From Neoroseomonas marina (lineage in GTDB: Bacteria; Pseudomonadota; Alphaproteobacteria; Acetobacterales; Acetobacteraceae), in the NCBI RefSeq assembly GCF_012927745.1, contig NZ_JABBKX010000010.1, forward strand, positions 1 through 64,000: a stretch of DNA of 64,000 bases, given 5' to 3'. The position numbers and the translations under genes are program-made. Below are positions 5,721-52,332 of the stretch, piece after piece. The stretch's first letter is position 1. Each line of letters begins with the position of its first letter. Under the pieces are notes generated by a model. The model saw nothing but the letters and a program-made list of their open reading frames with translations, was not told the origin of the DNA and did not search any database.

Positions 5721-5785
5721 TGAAGATGCTCGCGAAAACAAAAATATAGAGATGTTGCCGTGAGCCATGGCGAACGGAAACGGCT

Positions 5786-6499
5786 CTAGAACAGCTCCAT
5801 CAGCTTCGCGTGGTCGTCGAGGTCCGCGGGCGTGCCCTCGTAGATGAAGGCGCCGGAGCGCATCACCAGCACGCGGTCCGAGACGGCGAAGGCCTCGCGC
5901 ACATTCTGCTCGACCAGCAGGATCGACATGCCGCGGGTCTCGCGTAGCGCGGCGATCGGGCGGATCAGGTCCTGGAACAGCTTCGGCGCCAGGCCGATCG
6001 AGGGTTCGTCCAGCAGCAGCACCTTCGGGCGCGTCAGCAGCGCCCGCCCGATCGAGACCATCTGCTGCTGCCCACCCGAGAGCGTGCCGGCACGCCGCGT
6101 GCGGAACTCCTTGATGCGCGGCAGGACCTCGAGGACTTCCTCGATGCGCTCGCGCTGCTCGGCCTTCGCCACGCCGGCCGACCACAGGGCGAGGCCGAAG
6201 ATCTCCTCCACCGTCAGGTCGGGGAAGACGCCGCGGCCTTCCGGCACCAGCGCGACGCCGACGGCGCCGAGCGCGGCTGGCGTATAGGTCCCCGGCGTCT
6301 GCCCGAAGATGCGGATGCTGCCGGCCGAAGGGCGGTGCAGCCCGAACAGCACGCGCAGCAGCGTCGACTTGCCCGCGCCGTTGTGGCCGATGAGGCAGAG
6401 GATCTCGCCGGCCTTCAGCGTCAGCGCGACATCCTGCAGCACCTCGCGCCCGCCATAGCCGGCGGCGAGGCCCTGCGCCTCGATGGCGTCCTGGCTCAT
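5786..6499 (-). CDS. livF: Branched-chain amino-acid-type ABC transporter ATPase LivF
   Basis: Cytosolic ATPase subunit, 237 residues. Walker A GHNGAGKST, signature LSGGQQQ and Walker B KVLLLDEPSIGLAP are all intact, and the sequence shows LivF-type landmarks such as ALVPEGRGVFPDLTVEEIF and the short C-terminal tail. The ATG at 6499 (MSQDAIEAQG...) is chosen because it overlaps the livG stop by four bases; the open frame further upstream lies inside livG. Last gene of the SMP30-livKHMGF operon. LivF pairs with LivG to drive import of branched-chain amino acids, amides or aromatic compounds. Confidence 0.95.
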   Translation of the reverse strand: MSQDAIEAQGLAAGYGGREVLQDVALTLKAGEILCLIGHNGAGKSTLLRVLFGLHRPSAGSIRIFGQTPGTYTPAALGAVGVALVPEGRGVFPDLTVEEIFGLALWSAGVAKAEQRERIEEVLEVLPRIKEFRTRRAGTLSGGQQQMVSIGRALLTRPKVLLLDEPSIGLAPKLFQDLIRPIAALRETRGMSILLVEQNVREAFAVSDRVLVMRSGAFIYEGTPADLDDHAKLMELF

Positions 6500-7254
6500 G
6501 CGGCCTCCTGCGGGCGGTCGCCGAAATAGATGGCGGCGAGCGCCGGGTCGCGGAGGATGGTCTGCGGGTCGCCTTCCGCCAGCACCTTCCCCTGGTCGAG
6601 GAAGGCGATGCGGTCGGAGAGTTCCGTCACCACGTCGAGGTTGTGCTCGATCAGGCAGATCGCGACGCCCCGCGCGGTCGCGCCGCGCAGCAATTCCCCG
6701 AAGCGCAGGCGCGAGGCCAAATCGAGGCCCGAGGCGGGTTCGTCGAGCAGCCAGATATCGGCCTCGGCGGCGAGGATGCGCGCCATGGAGAGGAACTTGC
6801 GTTCCGCATAGGCGAGGTCGACCGCGCGGGCATGGGCGAGCGCGGCGAGGCCGGTCGCCTCCAGGGCGCGCGCTGCCCGGTCTTCCCGCGCACGTCGCGC
6901 CGCGCCGCCGCCGGGCTGCCAGAACCACGAGGCGGTCTCGGTCGCGGCGAGCACGTTCTCGCGCACGGTCATATGCGTGAACAGACGCAGGTCCTGGAAG
7001 GAGCGCGCGACGCCGAGCCGCGCGACCTGCCAGGGCTTCAGCCCCATGATCGGCTTGCCGCGGATCTGCGCCGCGCCGGAATCGGCGCGCAGGTTGCCGG
7101 TGATGAGGTTGAAGGTCGTCGTCTTGCCGGCGCCGTTCGGCCCGACCAGTGCCGTGACCTTTCCAGCATAGAGCGAGAGCGACACGCCGGCCACCGCCTG
7201 CAGCCCACCGAAGGCGCGCGCCAGGTTCTCGGTGCGGAGGACCTCGTCCGTCAT
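6496..7254 (-). CDS. livG: Branched-chain amino-acid-type ABC transporter ATPase LivG
   Basis: Second ATPase of the importer, 252 residues from the ATG at 7254 that overlaps the livM stop. Walker A is GPNGAGKTT (about residues 38-46); Walker B is DIWLLDEPASGLD. The signature loop reads LAYAERKFLSMARIL where LSxGxQR would be expected, so the canonical LSGGQ motif is clearly degenerate. The long insert between Walker A and the signature and the terminal VLAEGDPQTILRDPALAAIYFG are typical of LivG. Function depends on heterodimerising with LivF, whose signature is intact; in such pairs one degenerate site can be tolerated. Confidence 0.93.
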   Translation of the reverse strand: MTDEVLRTENLARAFGGLQAVAGVSLSLYAGKVTALVGPNGAGKTTTFNLITGNLRADSGAAQIRGKPIMGLKPWQVARLGVARSFQDLRLFTHMTVRENVLAATETASWFWQPGGGAARRAREDRAARALEATGLAALAHARAVDLAYAERKFLSMARILAAEADIWLLDEPASGLDLASRLRFGELLRGATARGVAICLIEHNLDVVTELSDRIAFLDQGKVLAEGDPQTILRDPALAAIYFGDRPQEAA

Positions 7255-8126
7255 GCCGTGGCCCTCCCCTTCGAGAGGTCGCCGACCAGTCCGGCCGGGC
7301 GGAAGATCATCAGCAGCGTCATGGCGAGGCCGTAGATGATCTGTTGCACGGCCCCGACCTCGGTCGCCGGGATGAAGGGCACGAAGGCGAGGCCCGCCGG
7401 CAGCGAGAGCAGGATGATCGCGCCGATGACCGGACCCCACAGCGTGCCCGTGCCGCCGATGATGACCATCGCCATCACCAGCACCGATTGGTCCATGGTG
7501 AAGGATTCGACGTTCACGAAGGACAGGTGCAGCGCGAACAGCGCGCCCGCGATGCCGGCCCCGGCACAGGCGAACAGCATGGCGAGTGTCTTCGCCGCCG
7601 CGACGTTCTTGCCCAGCGCCTCGGCCGCGCTTTCGGCGTCGCGCAGGGCCTGCAGCGTGCGCCCGAAGGCGCCGCGCTGGAGCAGCGCGGTCGCAAACAG
7701 GATCAGCGCCAGCGCGACGAGCGCGAGCGGCAGCACCGAGACCTCCATGCCGAACAGCGTCGGGCGCGGGATGGCGACCAGCCCGCCGATGCCGCCGGTG
7801 AAGGCCTTGGCTTCCGAGAACAGCGTGGTCGCCATCATCTGCAGCCCCAGCGAGGCCGCGACGAAGTATTCCCCTCTCACCCGCAGCGCCGGCAGCGCCA
7901 GGCACAGCGACAGCCCGCCCGCCACCACCGCCGCGACGACGCAGGCGAGGAGTGCATCGGGGACGATGTGCAGCGCCACCTGCGCCCCCGCATAGGCACC
8001 GAGGCCGAAGAACACGGCGTGGGCGACCGAGAAGATCCCCGCGAAGCCCACCACGAAGTTCAGCGTGGCGGCGAGGATCCCGAAGATCGCGACGATCGTC
8101 GCGAGGTTTGCGGCATAGGCGATCAT
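7251..8126 (-). CDS. livM: ABC transporter permease LivM
   Basis: Inner-membrane permease, 291 residues, from ATG 8126 (MIAYAANLATIVAIFGILAATLNFVVGF). The opening helix followed by GFAGIFSVAHAVFFGLGAYAGAQVAL is the LivM hallmark, and about eight hydrophobic spans follow, with the coupling segment GRTLQALRDAESAAEALGKNVAAAKTLA at about 185-212. Overlaps livH and livG by four bases each. With LivH it forms the translocation pore of the importer. Confidence 0.94.
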   Translation of the reverse strand: MIAYAANLATIVAIFGILAATLNFVVGFAGIFSVAHAVFFGLGAYAGAQVALHIVPDALLACVVAAVVAGGLSLCLALPALRVRGEYFVAASLGLQMMATTLFSEAKAFTGGIGGLVAIPRPTLFGMEVSVLPLALVALALILFATALLQRGAFGRTLQALRDAESAAEALGKNVAAAKTLAMLFACAGAGIAGALFALHLSFVNVESFTMDQSVLVMAMVIIGGTGTLWGPVIGAIILLSLPAGLAFVPFIPATEVGAVQQIIYGLAMTLLMIFRPAGLVGDLSKGRATA

Positions 8127-8992
8127 CGCGTCTGGGCCACCCCGAAGAAGCCGCTCGGGCGGAAGATGATGAAGGCGAACAGCACGAGGAACGACACCGC
8201 CTCGGCCCATTGCGTGTCGACGAACTGCAGGGCGACGGATTCGGCCACGCCCAGCATCAGCCCCGCAAGCGCCGCGCCGCGCAGCGACCCCACGCCGCCG
8301 ACGATGGTCGCGGCCATGGAGATCAGCATGACGTGGTGGCCGATCGCCTCGTTCAGCCCGGTCGTCATCGCCGTCAGGATCGCCGCCGGCGCCGCCATGG
8401 CGGAACCCACTGCGAAGGCCAGCATCGACAGCCGGTTCGAGGACAGTCCGTAGGCCCGCAGCAGGTCCGGGTTCTGCGCCAGCGCCCGCAGCGCGACGCC
8501 CGCATGGGTGCGCGTGAGGAAGGCCGACAGCGCGGCGAACAGCACGACCGCCACCGCGATCGCGATCCAGAAGATCGGCGCGAGGAAGACGTCCGGCAGC
8601 ACCTCGGTCGCGAGCGACAGCCGCGTATCCACCGATGCGAAGCCGCGCCCGGCGACCATGCCGACCAGGTTCTGCACCACGACGGCGACGCCGAAGGCAG
8701 CGACGAAGACCGTGAAGAAGGACCCCTCGTGCCGCTGGATCGGCCGGTAGACCAGCCGTTCCATGGCGAGGCCGAACAGCATCGCGACCGCGATGCCCGC
8801 GAGCGTGCCGATCCATCCCGGCAGCCCCCCGTTCCAGCAGAACAGGAAGGCGTAGCCGGCAAGGGTGAAGGAGGTCCCGTGCGCGAAGTGGAAGATGCGG
8901 GTCGCACCGAAGATCAGCGCGAAGCCGGCGGCGGTCAGCGCATACAGGGCACCCGTCTGGATGCCCTGCAGCAGGAGTTGCAGGAAGAGCAC
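8123..8992 (-). CDS. livH: ABC transporter permease LivH
   Basis: Second permease of the importer, 289 residues from a GTG at 8992, 9 bp after the livK stop codon. Typical LivH features are the N-terminal LLLQGIQTGALYALTAAGFALIFGATRIFHFAHG and the cytosolic EAA-like loop TRTHAGVALRALAQNPDLLRAYGLSSNRL (about 163-191). Six to eight hydrophobic segments. Followed by livM with a four-base overlap. Confidence 0.94.
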   Translation of the reverse strand: MLFLQLLLQGIQTGALYALTAAGFALIFGATRIFHFAHGTSFTLAGYAFLFCWNGGLPGWIGTLAGIAVAMLFGLAMERLVYRPIQRHEGSFFTVFVAAFGVAVVVQNLVGMVAGRGFASVDTRLSLATEVLPDVFLAPIFWIAIAVAVVLFAALSAFLTRTHAGVALRALAQNPDLLRAYGLSSNRLSMLAFAVGSAMAAPAAILTAMTTGLNEAIGHHVMLISMAATIVGGVGSLRGAALAGLMLGVAESVALQFVDTQWAEAVSFLVLFAFIIFRPSGFFGVAQTR

Positions 8993-9000
8993 GCGGGGTC

Positions 9001-10128
9001 TCAGGCGATCGGGACGACGCGCCCGCCGCGGATCTCGTTGACCTGGATGTCCGCCGACATGTTGCCCTGGTCGTCGAAGCGGCCCTTGCCGCCGACCAGG
9101 TCGAATTCCCGCACGCGCAGCAGCGTGGCGCGCAGGCTGTCCCCGTTCACCTCGGTGTTCTGGGCCTCGAGGTCCTTCGCCAGCAGGGCGAAGAGCCGCA
9201 CCGCGTTGTAGTAGTTGGCGTTGTAGGCGCCGGGTTCGCTGCCGTGCTTCGCCTTGAAGTCGGTCGCGAAGCGGCGGGTGATCTCGGATCCGCCGGTGTA
9301 GTCGAACTTCTGGCTGGTGAAGATCACGCCCTCGGCTTCGGGCAGCGCGGTGACGGACGCGATCGACAGCGCCGAATAGCCGACGATCGGCTGGCGGATG
9401 CCGTTGTCGCGCAGCCCCTTGATGATCTGCGCCTGCTGCGCGCCGAAGGAGGCGACATAGACCGCATCCGCCCGCACCTGGCGCACGCGCGCCGCGACGG
9501 GGCCGAACTGCTGCGCCGTGCGGGGCACCGAGAAGGTGCCGGCCAGCTCGCCGCCGGTCTTCGGCAACTCGGTCCGCAGCAGGCCCAGGATCGCATCGCC
9601 CAGCGGATCGTCCACATAGACGAGGGCGATGCGCTTCAGGTTCCGCTGCATCAGGAAGGGCAGGAAGGCCTGCGTCTCGAGATGCGCGAGGGGGATGACG
9701 TTCCAGAAATAGGGCGACAGGCCGGCCAGGTCCGGGCCGACGGCGCCGCCATTGACCATGATGGTCTTCGCCCGGTCCCCGACAGGCGCGACCGCCTTGG
9801 ACACGGCGGTGAAGCCGACCAGGACGTAATGCGCCTTGTCCACGTTCACGAGCTTGGTCATGCCGATGACGCCCTGCTGCGGCAGGGCCTGGGTGTCCTC
9901 GGCCTGGATGCGCATCGGACGGCGCAGCATGCGATCTTGCGCGGCGTGCTCGATGGCGAGCGCCGCACCGCTGGTGAACAACGTCCCGTACTCGCCGTTC
10001 GGGCCGCTCATCGGAAACAGCGTGCCGATCACGTAGGGATCGCCGCCCTGCGCGGCGGCGGGGCGGATGAAAGGCGCGGCCAGCGCCGTGCCCATCAAGG
10101 CGCGGCGCGCGATCTGCGGACCGGACAT
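9001..10128 (-). CDS. livK: Periplasmic substrate-binding protein of the liv-type importer
   Basis: Type I periplasmic binding protein, 375 residues, of the LivK/AmiC family. I place the start at ATG 10128, where MSGPQIARRALMGTALAAPFIRPAAAQGG gives a twin-arginine-like signal and a GGGAG Shine-Dalgarno lies 8 bp upstream; an in-frame ATG 66 bp earlier would spoil the signal peptide. Mature part begins YVIGTLFPMSGPNGEYG, the usual first strand of the fold, and includes NANYYNAVRLFALLAKDLE near the end. It sets the specificity of the importer; the ligand may be an amide or cyclic compound given the neighbouring lactonase and hydantoinase-type genes. Confidence 0.9.
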   Translation of the reverse strand: MSGPQIARRALMGTALAAPFIRPAAAQGGDPYVIGTLFPMSGPNGEYGTLFTSGAALAIEHAAQDRMLRRPMRIQAEDTQALPQQGVIGMTKLVNVDKAHYVLVGFTAVSKAVAPVGDRAKTIMVNGGAVGPDLAGLSPYFWNVIPLAHLETQAFLPFLMQRNLKRIALVYVDDPLGDAILGLLRTELPKTGGELAGTFSVPRTAQQFGPVAARVRQVRADAVYVASFGAQQAQIIKGLRDNGIRQPIVGYSALSIASVTALPEAEGVIFTSQKFDYTGGSEITRRFATDFKAKHGSEPGAYNANYYNAVRLFALLAKDLEAQNTEVNGDSLRATLLRVREFDLVGGKGRFDDQGNMSADIQVNEIRGGRVVPIA

Positions 10129-10148
10129 GGACGATACTCCCACGGGGA

Positions 10149-10166
10149 TTTGCTTAATTGCGCAAA
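10149..10166. promoter_or_regulatory. Inverted repeat TTTGC-N8-GCAAA upstream of livK
   Basis: An 18-bp dyad in the 62-bp gap between the lactonase gene and livK, ending 21 bp before the livK ATG. The centre is AT-rich (TTAATTGC), unusual here. It could be an operator for a local regulator or a weak processing hairpin; no regulator gene lies beside it. Confidence 0.3.
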
Positions 10167-10190
10167 GGTTCCGCTGCGCGCTGGCGCCTG

Positions 10191-11129
10191 TCAACCGTGC
10201 GGCAGGCGGAATCCCGGCTCATGCCACGGCATCGCGACCAGCTTCCCGCTGGTGGACAGGGTGATGTACGCGGTCCGCATGTCGGCGCCGCCGAAGCAGA
10301 TGTTGGTCGGCATGCGCTCGGGCATCTTCACGACGTGGACGATCTCGCCGGCGGGCGAGACGGTGGTGATCTCGCCGCTCACCAGCGTCGCGACGACGAT
10401 GTTGCCCGATGCCGCGATGGCCAGGCTGTCGAGCCGCCGGTAGCCCGGGAACTGGCACAGCACCCGCCCGCCATTCGACGACGGCCAGGGTTCCTTCCGC
10501 ACCTTGCCCGGCCCCTCGATATCCCAGGCCCAGAGCCGCCCGGTCTCGGTCTCCGCGACATACAGCGTCTTGCCGTCGGGGCTGATGCCGATGCCGTTGG
10601 CGCCGCCGAAGACGGGGAAGGCGGCCTCGACCACGCGGGATCCGTCCGCCGCGCCCCAATAGGCGCCGCCATGGTCGCGGTCCCGCGCGCGCACCTTGCC
10701 GAGGTCGCTGAACCAGAAGCCGCCCTGGCCGTCGAACATCAGGTCGTTCGGCCCGCGCAGCGGCCGCCCGTCGACGGCGCGATACAGAGTCTCGACCTTG
10801 CCGGTGGCGGGGTCCACCGTCTCGATGCGGCCGCCGGAATAATCGGGCGACTGGCCGGTGGGGCGCAGCATCCCGGGCTCATCATGCCAGGAGAAGCCGC
10901 CATTGTTGCAGACGTAGAGCACCCCCTTCGGCCCCAGCGCCAGACCGTTCGGCGCGCCCGTCACGGTGGCGATGGTGGATTTCGTGCCGTTCTCTGCGAC
11001 GCGGGTGATGCGCCGTGCCTCGATCTCCACCAGAGCCACGGAACCGTCCGGCATGCAGACCGGGCCTTCGGGGAAGCGCAGCCCGTCCGTGACGATGCGC
11101 AGGTCCGGGTTCTCGACGGTGACGGTCAT
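10191..11129 (-). CDS. SMP-30/gluconolactonase family lactone hydrolase
   Basis: Six-bladed beta-propeller metal-dependent lactonase, 312 residues from ATG 11129 (MTVTVENPDLRIVTDGL). Family metal and substrate residues are recognisable: E in GLRFPEGPVC (about 21), N in GAPNGLALG (about 60), N in RGPNDLMFDGQGGFWFSD (about 125) and D in GISPDGKTLYVAET (about 184). No signal peptide, so cytosolic. First gene of the operon leading into livKHMGF, and divergent from hyuBA over 99 bp, so it likely opens a lactone in the same pathway that the importer feeds. The open frame runs far upstream but only antisense to hyuB. Confidence 0.9.
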   Translation of the reverse strand: MTVTVENPDLRIVTDGLRFPEGPVCMPDGSVALVEIEARRITRVAENGTKSTIATVTGAPNGLALGPKGVLYVCNNGGFSWHDEPGMLRPTGQSPDYSGGRIETVDPATGKVETLYRAVDGRPLRGPNDLMFDGQGGFWFSDLGKVRARDRDHGGAYWGAADGSRVVEAAFPVFGGANGIGISPDGKTLYVAETETGRLWAWDIEGPGKVRKEPWPSSNGGRVLCQFPGYRRLDSLAIAASGNIVVATLVSGEITTVSPAGEIVHVVKMPERMPTNICFGGADMRTAYITLSTSGKLVAMPWHEPGFRLPHG

Positions 11130-11228
11130 GGCGCTTCCTTCCCTTGGAACTTGCGCGGGATCATGGCCCGGCATCCCGCCGCTGCGAAGCCTTGACGCCG
11201 CGCGCGCCGCGCCGGAGCGTGCCGTCCC

Positions 11229-12872
11229 ATGACGACGCCCGATCCCGTGACGCTCTCGGTCCTCGACAATCGCTTCCGCGCCATTGTCGAGGAGATGGGG
11301 GAGGCGATGCTGCGCACCGCCTATTCCCAGATCCTGAACTCCTCGCGCGACTTCTCGATCGCGCTGTGCGACGCGGGCGCGCGGCTGCTCGCCCAGGCGG
11401 ACCACATCCCGGTCCATGTCGGCGCCATGCCCTTCGCCGTGCAGGCGGTGGTCGAGGCCTTCGGCGCTGGGATCGCCGAGGGCGACATCTACCTGCTGAA
11501 CGATCCCTATCATGGCGGATCGCACCTGCCGGACCTGACCATCGTGGTGCCGGTCTTCGCCGACGGGCGACTGATGTTCTTCTCGGTGGTGCGCGCGCAT
11601 CACACGGACATCGGCGGCGGCACCCACGGCGCCTACAACCCTGCGGCGACCGAGATCTTCCAGGAAGGCCTGCGCCTGCCGCCGATCCTGCTCGGCCAGG
11701 GGCGGATGGCGCGACCGGACCTGGTGCGGATGATCGTCACCAACACCCGTCTGCCGCGCGAGGTGCGCGGCGACCTGATGGCGATGATCGGCGCGGCGCA
11801 CCTGGGCGAGAAGCGGCTGCTCGCCGTGCTCGACAAGCATGGCGCGGCGGAGACCGAGGCCGCGGTCGCCGCCATCCTCGCGCTGTCCGAGGCGCATGCC
11901 CGGCGCATCATCGCGTCCTGGAAGGATGGCGAATGGAAGGGCGAGGCCTTCCTCGACGACGACGGCTTCGGGCACGAGGATATCGCGATCCGCGCGACCG
12001 TCACGAAGAAGGGCGATTCCATCACGGTGGACCTGTCGGATTCCGCGCCGCAGGTGCCCTCCTTCCTCAATTCCTCCTGGCCCAACACCGCGAGCGCGGT
12101 GCGCATGGCGATCGCCTTCCTGCTCGACCCCGAGGTCGCGAAGAACGACGGCTGCTTCCGCCCGATCGAGATCATCGCCAAGGAAGGCACCATCGTCCTG
12201 CCGCGCGAGGGCGCGCCCGTGACCATGTGCACCTCCCACTGCTCGAACGAGATCGTGGAGGCAGTGGTCAAGGCGCTGGCCAATGCCTGTCCCGAGCGCG
12301 CCATGGGCGGCTGGGGCCGGCGCTTCCGCGTCGCGATCAAGGGCAGCGACGCACGGCGGCCGGGCCGGTCCTTCGTCTGGCACCTGTTCCATGCGCGGCC
12401 TGGCGGCGGTGGATCCTCGCGCGGCGACGGCTGGTCCACCGCGGGCGAATGGCATTCCGCCGGCGGCCTGAAGTTCGGCAGCGTGGAGATGGCCGAGGCG
12501 CGCTTCCCGCTGTTCTTCGCCAAGCACGAATTCCGTCCCGGCAGCGCCGGCGACGGCACCTATCGCGGCGGCCTCGGCGGCGAGCTCGTCATGCGGCTCG
12601 AGACCGATGGCCCTTCGGTGGCGAACACCGCGGGCGACGGCGTGCGGTATGGCGCGGCGGGGATGCTCGGTGGCCAGGACGCGGCGCCGCACCACTACAC
12701 GCTGAACCGCGCGGATGGGACGTCGCGTGATCTGAAGACGAAGGAAGTCGGCATTCCGCTCGCGCCGGGCGACACGCTGCATGTGCGCGCGGGTGGCGGC
12801 GGCGGGTGGGGCCCGCCGGAGAAGCGCGATCCGGCGGCGCGCGCCCGCGATGCCGAGGAAGGGCTGCTGTGA
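11229..12872 (+). CDS. Hydantoinase B/oxoprolinase-type subunit (HyuB)
   Basis: 547-residue subunit of the ATP-dependent hydantoinase/oxoprolinase/acetone-carboxylase superfamily. Landmarks: SVLDNRFRAIVEEMGEAMLRTAYSQILNSSRDFS near the N-terminus, HVGAMPFAVQAV, NDPYHGGSHLPDLTIVVPVF, HHTDIGGGTHGAY, and a C-terminal YRGGLGGE segment with a GGGGGWGPP tail. It works with HyuA (13036-15096) to hydrolyse a cyclic amide or a similar ring at the cost of ATP; the precise substrate is not predictable. Gene order B-then-A with an intervening structured repeat is unusual, since such subunits are normally adjacent. Confidence 0.92.
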   Translation: MTTPDPVTLSVLDNRFRAIVEEMGEAMLRTAYSQILNSSRDFSIALCDAGARLLAQADHIPVHVGAMPFAVQAVVEAFGAGIAEGDIYLLNDPYHGGSHLPDLTIVVPVFADGRLMFFSVVRAHHTDIGGGTHGAYNPAATEIFQEGLRLPPILLGQGRMARPDLVRMIVTNTRLPREVRGDLMAMIGAAHLGEKRLLAVLDKHGAAETEAAVAAILALSEAHARRIIASWKDGEWKGEAFLDDDGFGHEDIAIRATVTKKGDSITVDLSDSAPQVPSFLNSSWPNTASAVRMAIAFLLDPEVAKNDGCFRPIEIIAKEGTIVLPREGAPVTMCTSHCSNEIVEAVVKALANACPERAMGGWGRRFRVAIKGSDARRPGRSFVWHLFHARPGGGGSSRGDGWSTAGEWHSAGGLKFGSVEMAEARFPLFFAKHEFRPGSAGDGTYRGGLGGELVMRLETDGPSVANTAGDGVRYGAAGMLGGQDAAPHHYTLNRADGTSRDLKTKEVGIPLAPGDTLHVRAGGGGGWGPPEKRDPAARARDAEEGLL

Positions 12873-46945: not shown

Positions 46946-49153
46946 ATGCTTGGTAGGCCTGACGCCGAACCGGAAGGAACAGCGCGCGCCACCGCCGTTG
47001 GCAAAGGGATCGCCGGCGCCCTCATCGTGTCCGTCTGGAGCGTCACGAGCGCCATCGCCTATGCCGGCCTCCTGTACGCCGGGTTCTCGACTGCCGGGCT
47101 GCAACTCGGGATCTCCGGGGCGCTGCTCGGAGTCCTGACGGTGACCCTGGTCGGCGCGCTGGCCAGCGCCCGGTCCGGCATCGCCTTCGCCGCCCTGGGA
47201 AGCGCGGCGGTCCTGCACGCGGCTGCGGTGCAAGCCGTGGATGCTGCGCTGGAGGCGAAGGGCGTACCGGCCGGGCTGGCTCGCGAAGGTGCTGCGGTGC
47301 TGGCCTCCGGCATCATGACGGCGACGACCGGCGTGGCCCTTGCCGCGGTCGGGTTTGCGCGTCTCGGCTCCCTTGTCCGGCTCCTGCCGCACCCGGTTGC
47401 GGTCGGCTTCTACGCCGGCCTCGGCGTGGCGTTCACGGCGGGCGGGATCACCCTGGCAACCGGGATCGCGCCGCGCCTGGAATCCCTCGACGCCCTGGCA
47501 TTGCCGGAGCACCTCCTGCAGGCGGGCGTCGCCTGTGGCGTCGCATCGCTCCTGGTCGTCCTGCCGCGATGGATCCGGCACGGCGCCGTCATGCCGGCCG
47601 TCCTTGCCGCTGCCATCCTCGTCTTCCATGCGTCCTGGGCGGCCCTTGGCCGGAGCGTGGCGGACGGCCAGCAGGCGGGTTGGCTGCTCGGCCCGTTTCC
47701 GTCGGGGCGCATCCTCTCGCTCCCGCCGGCGCTGTCGTTCGATCTGTTCGACGGGGATCTCGCCACGAGCCTGCTGCCCTATGCGGCTTCTTCGGCGCTT
47801 CTGAGCGCCACCACCCTCGCGCTGATGGTGACCGGCATCGAGGCCCTGACCGGCCGCGCCATGGACGTCGACCGCGAGATGCAGGTCGCCGGATTCGCGA
47901 ACGTCGCGGGAGGGGCGCTGGGTGGCTTGCCGTCAGGGCATGCGCTCGCCCCGACCACCCTGCTCGCACGGTCCGGCCTGGTCGCCCGCTGGGTCACCGC
48001 GGTGCCCGCCGCCGTCGCGCTGACCGTCCTGCTGGTCGGCGCGGATGCGCTGGAGCTGATGCCGCGGCCGGTTCTCGCCGCCTTGCTGATCGCGGTCGGC
48101 TTCGAATGGATGGTCCTGCACAGTTGGCGCGAGGCCAGGGTCCTGCCGCGCCATGAAGTCGTGATCCTTCTATGCGTGGCGACGTCCATCGTGGTCGTGG
48201 GAATCCTCGGCGGAATCGGCATCGGTCTCGGCCTGTCACTGCTCATCTTCGCCTGGACCTATCGCCGCGTCCCGGTGATCCGCAGCACGGTGCGCGGCCA
48301 CGAGATGCGCAGCAGCGTGACGCGGTCGGCCGCGATGGCGCATGTGCTCGAGACGCAGGGACGACGGATCCTGCTGCTGCGCCTGCAGGGCTACATGTTC
48401 TTCCTCAATGCCGAGACGGTCCAGCGCGCCTTCGCCGCCGCGGCGGCCGACGGCGTCCGCTTCCTGATCCTCGACTTCCAGCACGTTCTCGGCATCGACA
48501 GTTCCGCGATCGACGTCTTCGGCCGGCTGGAACGCGATGCGCGGCAGCGCGGGGTCGTCATTGCGCTCAGCGCCGTCCCCGAGGTGGTGATGGATCGCTT
48601 CGCGGCCCGCGACGTATTCCACGCCTGCGCGCGCGTTTCGAGCGCTGATCAAGGGCTGGAGCAGGCGGAGGAACTCGTCCTCGCGGAACAGGGCAAGTCC
48701 GTGCACGAGGAGCGGGCGAGTTTCGCGGCGCATCTGGCCGCAGCCGCCGACATGCCCGACGCCGGGCGGCGGCTCGAGCCCTTCGTCACCCGGGTCGTCT
48801 TCGCGCCCGGTACGGTCCTGATGCGCCAGGGTCAGCCGGCTGACCACATGATCTTTCTCGAGAGCGGGCGGGTGTCGACCGTGCTGCACGAAGGCAGCGC
48901 GACGCCGATCCACCTGCGCACGCTCACGCCCGGGACGCTTGTCGGGGAGATCGCGCTCGTCCGCGGCGGCAGCCGCACCGCGTCGGTGATCGCGGTCACA
49001 TCCTGCGAGGCTGTCCGCATCGGCCGTGCGGAGCTCGCGCGCCTCGAGGTCGAGGACCCGGCGCTCGCCTTCGCCCTGCATCGCCTGATCATGCTGCAGG
49101 TGTCGGACAAGCTGGTCGACAACACCCGCGCCATGGAGTTTGCCCTGCGATGA
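46946..49153 (+). CDS. SulP anion transporter fused to STAS and cyclic-nucleotide-binding domains
   Basis: 735-residue inner-membrane protein. About ten hydrophobic spans fill residues 20-440 in the SulP/SLC26 pattern (AIAYAGLLYAGFSTAGLQLGISGALLG; later GGLPSGHALAPTTLLARSG). A STAS domain follows (about 465-570: LLLRLQGYMFFLNAETV, LILDFQHVLGIDSSAIDVFGRL) and a cyclic-nucleotide-binding domain (about 612-720) with VFAPGTVLMRQGQPADHMIF, LVGEIALVRGGSRTASVIA, where G-E and R of the phosphate-binding cassette are intact. ATG 46946 chosen because it begins the transmembrane unit. Transports sulfate, bicarbonate or another anion, probably gated by cNMP. Leads into the cytochrome/dehydrogenase genes. 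Confidence 0.9.
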   Translation: MLGRPDAEPEGTARATAVGKGIAGALIVSVWSVTSAIAYAGLLYAGFSTAGLQLGISGALLGVLTVTLVGALASARSGIAFAALGSAAVLHAAAVQAVDAALEAKGVPAGLAREGAAVLASGIMTATTGVALAAVGFARLGSLVRLLPHPVAVGFYAGLGVAFTAGGITLATGIAPRLESLDALALPEHLLQAGVACGVASLLVVLPRWIRHGAVMPAVLAAAILVFHASWAALGRSVADGQQAGWLLGPFPSGRILSLPPALSFDLFDGDLATSLLPYAASSALLSATTLALMVTGIEALTGRAMDVDREMQVAGFANVAGGALGGLPSGHALAPTTLLARSGLVARWVTAVPAAVALTVLLVGADALELMPRPVLAALLIAVGFEWMVLHSWREARVLPRHEVVILLCVATSIVVVGILGGIGIGLGLSLLIFAWTYRRVPVIRSTVRGHEMRSSVTRSAAMAHVLETQGRRILLLRLQGYMFFLNAETVQRAFAAAAADGVRFLILDFQHVLGIDSSAIDVFGRLERDARQRGVVIALSAVPEVVMDRFAARDVFHACARVSSADQGLEQAEELVLAEQGKSVHEERASFAAHLAAAADMPDAGRRLEPFVTRVVFAPGTVLMRQGQPADHMIFLESGRVSTVLHEGSATPIHLRTLTPGTLVGEIALVRGGSRTASVIAVTSCEAVRIGRAELARLEVEDPALAFALHRLIMLQVSDKLVDNTRAMEFALR

Positions 49154-49254: not shown

Positions 49255-49596
49255 ATGGCGAAGCGCGGCGCAGTTCCAGTGAAGCGGTTATGCGCCGCGC
49301 TGTTGGCCATCATCATCCTCGGCGACCGCCACGCGGGAGCGCAGGCGCCGGCCGTCCCGGATGCGGCGGCGGTCTGCCTGTCATGCCACGGCCCCTTCGG
49401 CCGGCCGGAGACACCGGAGTATCCCATCATCGGCGGGCAGAACGCGGCCTACCTGGCATCGGCATTGCGCGCCTACCGCGCCGGGCAGCGAACGGGCGAA
49501 GCCGCCGGCGTGATGACGGGTGTCGCGGAGCCGCTCGACGACCGCACGATCGAGGACCTCGCCGCCTTCTTCTCCTCACTGAGGTCGCTGCGATGA
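49255..49596 (+). CDS. Small class I cytochrome c
   Basis: 113 residues with a signal peptide (VKRLCAALLAIIILGDRHAGAQ). Haem-binding motif C41-L-S-C44-H45, distal ligand probably M87 in GVMTGVAEPL. Single haem, c553/c5-like size, periplasmic. I choose ATG 49255 over an ATG at 49150 because the latter adds a charged tail before the signal peptide. Its stop overlaps the phytochelatin-synthase-type gene (ATGA), the first of three such overlaps. It is the likely electron acceptor of the GMC dehydrogenase two genes downstream, replacing the multi-haem subunit of gluconate-type dehydrogenases. Confidence 0.88.
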   Translation: MAKRGAVPVKRLCAALLAIIILGDRHAGAQAPAVPDAAAVCLSCHGPFGRPETPEYPIIGGQNAAYLASALRAYRAGQRTGEAAGVMTGVAEPLDDRTIEDLAAFFSSLRSLR

Positions 49597-50294
49597 CGCG
49601 CCGGCTCGCCCTTGCGCTCCTGCTCTGCGGGCTTCTGTTTCCGTGGCACCTGCGCGCCCAGCTGGTGGCGCTCGACACGCCCGATGGCGCGGCGCGCTTT
49701 CACCGCGCCATCGGCGGGCCTCAGGCACTCGGTCTGCTGGCGAACCTCGAGACGGAGGTCTTCCTGACCTTCTGCGGGCCGGCCTCCCTGGCGACCGCGC
49801 TGAACGCGCTCGGCCTGCACGAGCCTTCGCCCGCGGCCTTCTTTCCGCACCGGCGGATGACCCAGGATTCTCTGTTCACGCCGGCGAACCTCGCGGTGAA
49901 GAGCTACGCCGCCGTGCAGGCCGGCGGACTGACGCTCGAACAACTCGCCGATTTCGCGCGCAACCTCGGCGCGGCGGCCGAGGCCGTTTATGCGGACACA
50001 GTCGACGCCGCTGCGCTACGCGCCAGGATCTCGGCCGCCCTGGCCGATCCGGCGAGCCGCGTGATCGTGAACTATTCGCGCATCCCGCTCGGGCAGGAAG
50101 GCGACGGGCACATCTCCCCGGTCGCGGCCTATGACGCCGAATCCGACAGCGTCCTGATCCTCGATGTCGCCCGCTACAAGTATCCGCCGGTCTGGACGCC
50201 GATCGCGACCCTGCTCGTGGCGATGCAGCACGTGGATCCGGATGCGGGGCGTGTCCGGGGCCTGCTGTTCCTCACCGCGCGACGGGCGCAATGA
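49593..50294 (+). CDS. Phytochelatin synthase-family periplasmic cysteine peptidase
   Basis: 233 residues; signal peptide about 1-22 (RRLALALLLCGLLFPWHLRAQ), so probably periplasmic. The papain-like catalytic triad of phytochelatin synthase is complete: C61 in LTFCGPASLATALNALG, H173 in GDGHISPVAAYD and D191 in LILDVARYKYPPVW; spacing (112 and 18 residues) is within one residue of that of the cyanobacterial enzyme Alr0975. Also typical is TPANLAVKSYAAVQAGGLTLEQL. Short bacterial forms mainly cleave the glycine from glutathione rather than polymerise it. Overlaps both neighbours by four bases, within a dehydrogenase operon, an arrangement I have not seen described. Confidence 0.9.
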   Translation: MTRRLALALLLCGLLFPWHLRAQLVALDTPDGAARFHRAIGGPQALGLLANLETEVFLTFCGPASLATALNALGLHEPSPAAFFPHRRMTQDSLFTPANLAVKSYAAVQAGGLTLEQLADFARNLGAAAEAVYADTVDAAALRARISAALADPASRVIVNYSRIPLGQEGDGHISPVAAYDAESDSVLILDVARYKYPPVWTPIATLLVAMQHVDPDAGRVRGLLFLTARRAQ

Positions 50295-50710
50295 GGCGGC
50301 GCGACCTCCTCTGCGGAACAGCGGTCGCCCCCTTGCTGGTCGCGGCGCCGCTCGGCGCGACGCCGCTGGGTGGTTTCGAGGAAGCGGCCGTTGCGCTCGC
50401 CGGCAGCCGCGACCTGCCGCCCTTCGTGCTGGACATGGCGCAGCGCATGCTGGTGGCGGAGTTCGGAGCGGCGCCGGTCGGTGATCTCATCGCCGCTGTG
50501 GCGGCTTGGCGCCGCGGCGCCGCTCTGCCGGACACTCTGGAGCCGCTGGCGCAGCGGCTGCTCGTGATCCTCTACACAGGTGAGACCGACGCCACCAATC
50601 CGCGTGCGCAGGTCGGCCATTACCCCTGGGCGCTCGCGTGGCAGGTGCTTCGCTTTGCCAAGGCCCCAGGGCTGTGCAGCGGCGGCTTCGGCGACTGGGC
50701 CCGCACATGA
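50291..50710 (+). CDS. Small (gamma-like) subunit of a membrane-bound FAD sugar dehydrogenase
   Basis: 139 residues with a twin-arginine signal (MRRRDLLCGTAVAPLLVAAP). The C-terminal YPWALAWQVLRFAKAPGLCSGGFGDWA resembles the end of the small subunit of FAD-linked sorbitol/gluconate/fructose dehydrogenases (PF12318-type), which carries the catalytic FAD subunit through the Tat pore. Overlaps the preceding and following genes by four bases each. Together with the GMC protein at 50707 and the cytochrome at 49255 it would form a periplasm-facing dehydrogenase of an unknown alcohol or sugar. Confidence 0.82.
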   Translation: MRRRDLLCGTAVAPLLVAAPLGATPLGGFEEAAVALAGSRDLPPFVLDMAQRMLVAEFGAAPVGDLIAAVAAWRRGAALPDTLEPLAQRLLVILYTGETDATNPRAQVGHYPWALAWQVLRFAKAPGLCSGGFGDWART

Positions 50711-52332
50711 CCGCCGACGCGAACGAAACCTGTGACGTCGCCATCGTCGGGTCCGGCGTCGCCGGAGCCCACGCGGCGCACGGCCTGGCGGCCAAGGGCC
50801 TGCGGGTGATCGTGCTGGAGGCCGGGCAACGGCGCAGCCGCGCCGAGCTGACGCGGACCTTCTTCGACAACCCGGTCAAGGGGCCGCAATCCGCCTACCC
50901 ACCCGACCCCTTCGCACCCTTTCCGGAGGACGATCGCTACGCGGACTTCTACGTGCAGGGCGGGGAGATGCCGTTCATCGGCGCCTATCTGAGGCTCGTC
51001 GGCGGCACCTCGTGGCACTGGACGGGCTTCGCCGACCGCCTGCGGCCGAACGACCTGCGCATGCGTTCCCTCTACGGGGTGGGCGAGGACTGGCCGATCG
51101 CCTACGCGGAACTCGAGCCCTATTACGAGCGCGCCGAGCGCGAATGGGGCGTGTCCGGGGATCCGCGCTTCACCTGGGGGGCGCCGAGGCGCGGACCGTT
51201 TCCCCAGCCGCCGATTCCGCCGAGCGCGCTCGATCTCGCGCTCGCGCCCGCGTTGGCGCAACTCGGGCTGACGGCCGGGCTCTTCTCGCATGCCCGCAAC
51301 GCGGTGCCCTTCGACGGGCGCCCGGCCTGCTGCGGCAACAACACCTGCGTGCCGATCTGCCCGATCGGCGCGAAATACGATGCCTCCGTGCATGTGGCGA
51401 AGGCGGAGGGCGCGGGCGCGCGGCTGATCGAGCGCGCGCGCGTCGACTTCATCGAACTGGACGCCGCGCGCCGGGTTTCGGCCCTGGCGGCGAAGCGCCC
51501 GGATGGCTCGACGCTGCGTGTGACCGCGCGCCACTACGTGCTCTGCTGCCATGCGATCGAGACGCCCCGCCTGCTGCTCGCGAGCCGCCAGGCCCAGGCA
51601 CCCAACGGCGTGGCGAACGGCAGCGACAATGTCGGGCGTTGGCTGTTGACGCAGGCGAACCAGGATTGCCAGGGACTGACGCGCGAGGCCGTCCTGCCGT
51701 ATCGAGGCCCGCAGCAGACCAGCGGCATCGAACAGCTGCGCGACGGACCCTTCCGCAAGGACCGCGCGGCGGTCGGCACATCCTTCATGAACAGCGGATG
51801 GTCGGGCAACAGCGATGCGACCCGCGTCGCGCGGGACCTCATCGCGCAGGGGCTGAAGGGCAGCGCGCTGGTCGAAGCCCTCAACCAGCGCGTCTCGCGG
51901 CACCTGCGGCTCAATGCCTCGGCCGAGACGCTGGCGCGACGCGAGAACCGCGTCGAACTCGACCCCGTGCTGCGCGACGTCGCCGGCATCCCGCGGCCGC
52001 GGGTCACATTCGCGCTCGACGACTACACGCGCCGCGGCCTGGAGGAGGCGCTGAAGGTGAACCAGCGCATCCTGGATGCGATGGGCTCGACCTACGTCAC
52101 CTGGAACGCGCCCTACCTGTCGAATGCGATCATCGCCGGCACGACGCGCATGGGCCGCGACCCGGCAAGTTCGGTGGTCGGCCCTGATCTGCGCACGCAT
52201 GAGCATCCGAACCTGTCGATCCTCGGCCCGTCGACGCATGTGAGCGCGCCGGTGAACGCGCCGAGCCTGACGGTCGCCGCCATGGCCTATCGGCTCGCCG
52301 ATCGCCTCGCCGCGCCGGGTGGGCTCGACTAG
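50707..52332 (+). CDS. GMC-family FAD dehydrogenase, catalytic subunit
   Basis: 541 residues from ATG 50707, overlapping the gamma-like subunit. FAD-binding Rossmann motif VAIVGSGVAGAHAAHGLAAKGLRVIVLEAG (residues 11-40); GGTSWHWTGFADRLRPND marks the GMC signature; CCHAIETPRLLLAS and the C-terminal STHVSAPVNAPSLTVAAMAYRLADRL with a likely catalytic His in the STHVS region. It has no signal peptide, fitting export as a hitchhiker with the Tat-tagged small subunit. Closest in plan to gluconate 2-dehydrogenase/sorbitol dehydrogenase large subunits. Oxidises an alcohol or sugar and passes electrons to cytochrome c. Confidence 0.9.
   Translation: MTADANETCDVAIVGSGVAGAHAAHGLAAKGLRVIVLEAGQRRSRAELTRTFFDNPVKGPQSAYPPDPFAPFPEDDRYADFYVQGGEMPFIGAYLRLVGGTSWHWTGFADRLRPNDLRMRSLYGVGEDWPIAYAELEPYYERAEREWGVSGDPRFTWGAPRRGPFPQPPIPPSALDLALAPALAQLGLTAGLFSHARNAVPFDGRPACCGNNTCVPICPIGAKYDASVHVAKAEGAGARLIERARVDFIELDAARRVSALAAKRPDGSTLRVTARHYVLCCHAIETPRLLLASRQAQAPNGVANGSDNVGRWLLTQANQDCQGLTREAVLPYRGPQQTSGIEQLRDGPFRKDRAAVGTSFMNSGWSGNSDATRVARDLIAQGLKGSALVEALNQRVSRHLRLNASAETLARRENRVELDPVLRDVAGIPRPRVTFALDDYTRRGLEEALKVNQRILDAMGSTYVTWNAPYLSNAIIAGTTRMGRDPASSVVGPDLRTHEHPNLSILGPSTHVSAPVNAPSLTVAAMAYRLADRLAAPGGLD

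Follow-up and report, generated by a model that had tools for sequence, protein, structure and literature searches.

Two groups of described proteins come closest to a four-gene operon (positions 49255–52332, + strand) in the window, the 64,000-nucleotide stretch of Neoroseomonas marina contig NZ_JABBKX010000010.1 that we analyzed. The first is represented by the phytochelatin synthase (PCS) of Nostoc, NsPCS or Alr0975 (PDB 2btw/2bu3), a PF05023 protein without the eukaryotic C-terminal domain that deglycylates glutathione (GSH); SmPCS deglycylates GSH S-conjugates. The second comprises the flavin adenine dinucleotide (FAD)-dependent glucose dehydrogenase of Burkholderia cepacia (BcGDH, PDB 6a2u/8hdd) and the fructose dehydrogenase of Gluconobacter japonicus (FDH, 7w2j). 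Their complexes pair the flavoprotein with a hitchhiker subunit carrying a twin-arginine translocation (Tat) signal and with a three-heme cytochrome c, and the BcGDH-family complex has been described with three subunits (PMC6719666). The catalytic pair of BcGDH is His476/Asn519 (PMC6719666), and the active-site His is conserved throughout the glucose-methanol-choline (GMC) superfamily (PMC8171062).

The window operon encodes, in this order, a one-heme cytochrome c, a PCS-type peptidase, a Tat-tagged hitchhiker subunit and an FAD subunit. It shares with the BcGDH and FDH complexes the fold, 3Fe-4S cysteines and FAD-linking His of the flavoprotein, a Tat hitchhiker with a conserved Cys, and a partner cytochrome c. 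Unlike those complexes, it has Ile/Ala for His476/Asn519, one heme rather than three and a PCS gene within the operon, to which most related loci add a multicopper oxidase and a membrane protein resembling the major facilitator superfamily (MFS). The peptidase has the domain organization of NsPCS, its catalytic triad and the Arg, Lys and Tyr of its second-substrate cavity, but carries Glu for Gln64, sits inside a dehydrogenase cassette and falls in a separate tree group. All the cassette proteins come from known families; what appears to be new is their combination and the rebuilt active site, and the pathway as such has a real chance of being new. The cellular role of bacterial phytochelatin synthases is poorly known. 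Because the conserved gene order ties one of them to a specific respiratory enzyme, the function of the cassette PCS is directly testable.

Conservation of the four-gene order

A sequence-only reading of the window had described four genes, each overlapping the next by four bases, and the open reading frames (ORFs) agree: all four are in place, with ATGA at each of the three junctions. Their products scored 25.8 bits to Cytochrom_C (Pfam cut-off, 21.3 bits), 164 bits to Phytochelatin (PF05023; cut-off, 24.9 bits) and 59.5 bits to GMC_oxred_C (PF05199). Comparison with two relatives revealed purifying selection on the operon genes, with nonsynonymous-to-synonymous substitution ratios (dN/dS) of 0.06–0.48. 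The PCS gene is the only one in the source genome. ATGA overlaps by themselves are frequent in operons. What excludes chance as the source of the arrangement is that its genes recur in this order at 35 further loci, often with overlaps of -4 or -1.

To find these loci, 84,980 genomes were scanned with a PCS alignment; this recovered 212 relatives, the best 80 of which were kept. The sequence-only reading had proposed counting PCS–dehydrogenase neighborhoods: 35 of the best 80 PCS loci carry the cytochrome c, PCS, small-subunit and FAD genes in the same order and on one strand. Gaps between the cassette genes are mostly -4 or -1 bases, a few being unreliable from automatic start choice. By their NCBI names, nearly all of the 35 loci belong to Alphaproteobacteria of about nine families (Roseomonadaceae, Acetobacteraceae, Rhizobiaceae, Phyllobacteriaceae, Paracoccaceae, Roseobacteraceae, Thalassospiraceae, Kiloniellaceae and Rhodovibrionaceae), joined by a Comamonadaceae metagenome-assembled genome (MAG) and unplaced MAGs. 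Experiments are feasible because the cassette also occurs in cultured bacteria such as Thalassospira, Kiloniella, Rhizobium and roseobacters.

Within the genus sample, 6 of 35 genomes have a PCS, and in four of them (the window's genome, G005, G021 and G011) it lies beside the cytochrome c, small-subunit and FAD genes. Contig ends interrupt the run in G016, where PCS and the FAD gene lie at the ends of C74 and C20, respectively, and G023 has a frame-broken PCS and lacks the altered-type FAD gene (the one with the Ile/Ala replacements). The class sample yielded a PCS in 20 of 385 genomes and the full core in G335, G291 and G193, at 46–51% identity for PCS and 59–63% for the FAD subunit. Together with the 84,980-genome scan, these samples exclude a one-genome oddity, which the sequence-only reading had named as an outcome that would refute its proposal.

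Co-occurrence was assessed in roughly 770 genomes sampled at the genus, class and phylum levels; only a few candidates were scored in each, so the coverage is not exhaustive. The altered FAD subunit always shared its genome with a PCS (five genus members, G193, G335, G291, G372 and G752), and no case without a PCS was seen among these genomes. The converse fails, as some genomes keep PCS without the altered FAD subunit. The dependence thus seems to run one way, with the FAD enzyme relying on PCS and PCS able to persist alone. This co-occurrence and the order conserved across about nine families uphold the connection that the sequence-only reading had drawn between PCS and the dehydrogenase; on such genomic evidence, the link is real and old. 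We found no publication on this gene set in the open-access literature (most subscription papers lie outside that coverage).

The PCS tree (82 rows) places all 36 linked PCS, the window's included, in one 46-row group (support 99/91), and none in the 36-row sister group of cyanobacterial, Gallionella and other proteobacterial PCS. Ten unlinked rows also fall inside the linked group. Three of them (L066, L077 and L106) come from genomes with an altered FAD subunit at another site, and the L107 genome has a 157-residue FAD-subunit fragment (51% identity). Two Mesorhizobium loci (L079 and L080, about 5722–6690) retain an intact cassette-type PCS after a decayed cytochrome c gene, without an altered FAD subunit, in an apparent loss of the cassette with retention of PCS. 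The reading frame of the L083 PCS is broken, and PCS stands by itself in L099, L105 and L128. In the window's branch, L069 and L070, contigs from a 'Methylocystis' MAG and a Roseomonas MAG, encode identical PCS proteins, so one of the two is probably mis-binned.

Residues of the FAD subunit and the PCS peptidase

The FAD subunit carries the GMC domains PF00732 and PF05199 and, at its N-terminus, VGSGVAG, an instance of the Gly-X-Gly-X-X-Gly motif. Its closest solved relatives are the Burkholderia FAD-glucose dehydrogenase and the Gluconobacter fructose dehydrogenase. A predicted model (predicted local distance difference test, pLDDT, 80) is likewise closest to FDH and BcGDH, with template-modeling (TM) scores of 0.88–0.89, loops 102–107 and 211–215 being poorly modeled. 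Compared with the published BcGDH residues (PMC6719666), the cofactor residues His104, Cys208, Cys209, Cys214 and Cys218 are kept in 28 of 28 cassette-type proteins.

The catalytic pair is replaced. At the His476 column of BcGDH, Ile stands in all 28 cassette-type proteins and His in all 31 outgroup proteins. The Asn519 column has Ala in 27 of the 28 (the G372 protein, with the motif INPP, has Pro) and Asn throughout the outgroup, and the Asn475 column has Ala in all 30 cassette-type members compared. Further relatives from the phylum sample follow the same split, and the altered FAD subunits form one clade (support 100/98). Furthermore, His511 and Asn517 are invariant in the cassette proteins and absent from the same outgroup columns, and 41 positions are near-invariant and cassette-specific. 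Asn517 could lie opposite Asn519 under an alignment with a one-residue insertion, but the loss of His476 is independent of that. The sequence-only reading had set the protein beside sorbitol/gluconate dehydrogenases; because the catalytic His/Asn pair is replaced, it cannot be taken as an ordinary member of that type. A GMC clade that uniformly replaces the superfamily's conserved catalytic His implies that either the catalytic solution or the type of reaction is new.

The small subunit has the marks of the Tat-tagged hitchhiker of a BcGDH/FDH-type complex: its N-terminus is of the RR Tat type, and the RR pair and Cys129 are invariant in the cassette alignment. The window protein has no Pfam match of its own; PF12318 (FAD-SLDH) was matched by 6 of the 23 small subunits aligned from cassette loci (best, 1.3e-7). 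The small subunits of FDH and BcGDH rank high among the PDB matches to a low-confidence model (pLDDT 71), but these matches are weak (E > 0.1) and supportive at most. The cytochrome has a single CxxCH in 113 residues and so is not of the three-heme kind.

The PCS protein aligns with NsPCS over 179 residues. The triad C61-H173-D191 that had been read from the sequence coincides with that of the Nostoc enzyme, and a Cys-His-Asp triad is present in 36 of 36 linked PCS. Arg173, Lys206 and Tyr207 of NsPCS are kept as Arg163, Lys196 and Tyr197. Since these residues and the triad are conserved, recognition of gamma-Glu-Cys by the cassette PCS is plausible. The oxyanion-hole position (Gln64 in NsPCS, Gln50 in AtPCS1) is Glu in all 36 linked PCS. 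Among unlinked PCS with a residue there, 34 of 44 have Gln, as does NsPCS, and the remaining 10 have Glu, 8 of them from the same tree group as the linked PCS. L109 and L122 have oxyanion-Glu PCS from outside the cassette clade, and in L122 a similar cytochrome c gene lies divergent to PCS, close to a contig end.

A possible periplasmic pathway and its alternatives

The explanation we favor, at a probability of roughly 0.35, is a conserved periplasmic two-enzyme pathway in which PCS would deglycylate a glutathione-type substrate and the FAD complex would oxidize the product, passing electrons to cytochrome c. Knowledge of the families suggests that PCS would be exported by Sec and the FAD subunit by Tat, folded and together with its hitchhiker, and that electrons would flow from FAD to the 3Fe-4S cluster, the one-heme cytochrome c and respiration. 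More tentatively, PCS would remove glycine from a gamma-Glu-Cys-Gly compound, either glutathione or a glutathione S-conjugate, given that Arg163, Lys196 and Tyr197 are kept and that other PCS enzymes act on both. The FAD subunit might then oxidize the gamma-Glu-Cys product at the thiol or a sulfur-borne group by a route without the usual His base. The multicopper oxidase and the transporter may catalyze later or accessory steps that are dispensable in the window's lineage. An altered FAD subunit never found without PCS in the samples, and a PCS that persists alone, are the pattern to be expected of an FAD enzyme that catalyzes a step following PCS.

In broader terms, the cassette may represent a new alphaproteobacterial periplasmic respiratory pathway, a proposal to which we give somewhat less than even odds. 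A PCS-derived peptidase and a GMC flavoenzyme with a rebuilt active site would metabolize glutathione-type or gamma-Glu-Cys compounds and couple thiol chemistry to cytochrome c, mostly with a dedicated oxidase and transporter. PMC11778925 describes a partial parallel in MftG, also a GMC flavoenzyme, which passes electrons from a small redox compound, mycofactocin, to respiration. The organism group and the GMC protein are different; the cassette is predicted to be periplasmic and no mycofactocin genes were seen with it, so the likeness is an analogy only.

Several points weigh against the two-enzyme pathway. The Gln-to-Glu change may weaken or alter the peptidase activity of PCS, as AtPCS1 requires its oxyanion Gln50 (Q50N is inactive and Q50A nearly so). 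HMFO, a GMC enzyme that oxidizes thiols, uses its catalytic His as the base there too; loss of this His alone does not, therefore, predict thiol oxidation. No recurring glutathione-related neighbor gene was found in the cassette flanks. Finally, the dependence of the FAD enzyme on PCS equally fits a maturation factor: a one-way dependence fits that role and a product–substrate relation alike, and sequence cannot separate them.

Under this alternative, PCS would serve as a peptidase in the maturation or assembly of the dehydrogenase, or would cut a non-glutathione peptide such as the precursor of a redox compound re-oxidized by the FAD enzyme. The absence of altered FAD subunits without PCS in the samples and the translational coupling of the genes are consistent with it, as is the changed oxyanion residue, with which substrate or chemistry may differ. 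Yet some genomes retain PCS by itself, the PCS and FAD genes of G372 are not adjacent, and no precursor-peptide gene was seen, short ORFs not having been searched systematically. To our knowledge, the characterized FAD complexes of the BcGDH/FDH family are made without a PCS. We regard a maturation role as rather unlikely.

Metal handling, most likely of copper, is about as doubtful. PCS is a classical metal-response enzyme, and its products (gamma-Glu-Cys or phytochelatins, made from glutathione of the periplasm or the environment) would bind Cu(I), which a CueO-like oxidase would oxidize while the FAD/cytochrome proteins managed the thiol redox state. A Tat-signal multicopper oxidase does lie directly upstream in 29 of the 35 linked loci, and the MFS-like protein (a weak MFS_1 match, below cut-off) directly downstream in 28; in the single oxidase-bearing locus without it, the stretch is cut by a contig end. 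The oxidase shares the Tat signal and multicopper oxidase domains of CueO-type enzymes and laccases, and has a CueO-like HCHILPHEDTGMM end and partial matches to CueO models, but falls well short of the CueO family cut-off (142 versus 525 bits). Against a copper role, the window's branch (L067–L071) and L110 hold only the four-gene core, with neither oxidase nor MFS-like gene within the stretch read, and a search of the source genome aimed at the oxidase, and not at the MFS-like protein, found no match elsewhere. The regions upstream of the oxidase in 20 loci contain no common 8-mer beyond shuffles and no CueR-, Zur-, Fur- or SoxR-like boxes, and metal regulation from upstream motifs was dropped. 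Across families, no flanking gene family recurs beyond the oxidase and the MFS-like protein, and the flanks outside the six-gene unit vary.

The FAD subunit could instead be a catalytically silent or reverse-running electron carrier, with PCS and, where present, the oxidase as the working enzymes. Both canonical catalytic residues are indeed lost in all cassette members. We consider this improbable: the FAD gene is under strong purifying selection (dN/dS 0.06–0.12), and the gained invariant His511 and Asn517 and the 41 near-invariant positions look like new function, not decay. A passenger PCS whose operon position is functionally meaningless would suit the few genomes of the clade with PCS and no FAD gene, but was set aside as very improbable after the scan showed the conserved order in 35 loci, with order and coupling kept across about nine families and the altered FAD subunit never found without PCS in the sampled genomes.

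Operon features and neighboring genes

Table 1. Features of the four-gene operon in the window, with positions counted from its first nucleotide.
Feature	Position	Strand	Evidence
Cytochrome c with one heme (CxxCH, 49375–49389) and an N-terminal export signal	49255–49596	+	PF00034; homologues in 35 linked loci
PCS-type papain-fold peptidase, likely Sec signal peptide	49593–50294	+	PF05023, 164 bits; NsPCS alignment
PCS triad residues C61, H173 and D191, kept	49773–49775; 50109–50111; 50163–50165	+	Residue table
PCS E55 in place of the oxyanion-hole Gln	49755–49757	+	Residue table
Small Tat-tagged hitchhiker subunit, PF12318-type, invariant Cys129	50291–50710	+	Cassette alignment, PF12318 matches, model
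FAD catalytic subunit, BcGDH/FDH type	50707–52332	+	412 bits to BcGDH; TM-score 0.88–0.89 to FDH and BcGDH
FAD subunit His104, equivalent of FAD-linked BcGDH His105	51016–51018	+	28/28 cassette members
FAD subunit Cys208, Cys209, Cys214 and Cys218: 3Fe-4S ligands and inter-subunit Cys	51328–51360	+	28/28
FAD subunit Ala474-Ile475 where BcGDH has Asn475-His476	52126–52131	+	Ile throughout the cassette members, His throughout the outgroup
FAD subunit new invariant His511 and Asn517; Ala518 where BcGDH has catalytic Asn519	52237–52260	+	Alignment

Some arrangements were noted near related genes in other genomes. In G372 (L182, about 6901–12185), ~2 kb separates the altered FAD gene from a multicopper oxidase gene (39% identity) on the opposite strand, and PCS is on another contig. 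Three unrelated genomes have ORFs near the cassette or PCS that by eye look like phytanoyl-CoA dioxygenases (L092, 10378–11235; L184, 12225–13052; L107, 6630–7673).

Two further genes border the window operon. Just upstream, outside the conserved cassette, positions 46949–49150 (+) encode a SulP-type permease with STAS and cyclic-nucleotide-binding domains. A convergent ORF from 52339 to about 54150 (-) has a translation that resembles a class III nucleotide cyclase with repeats behind it.

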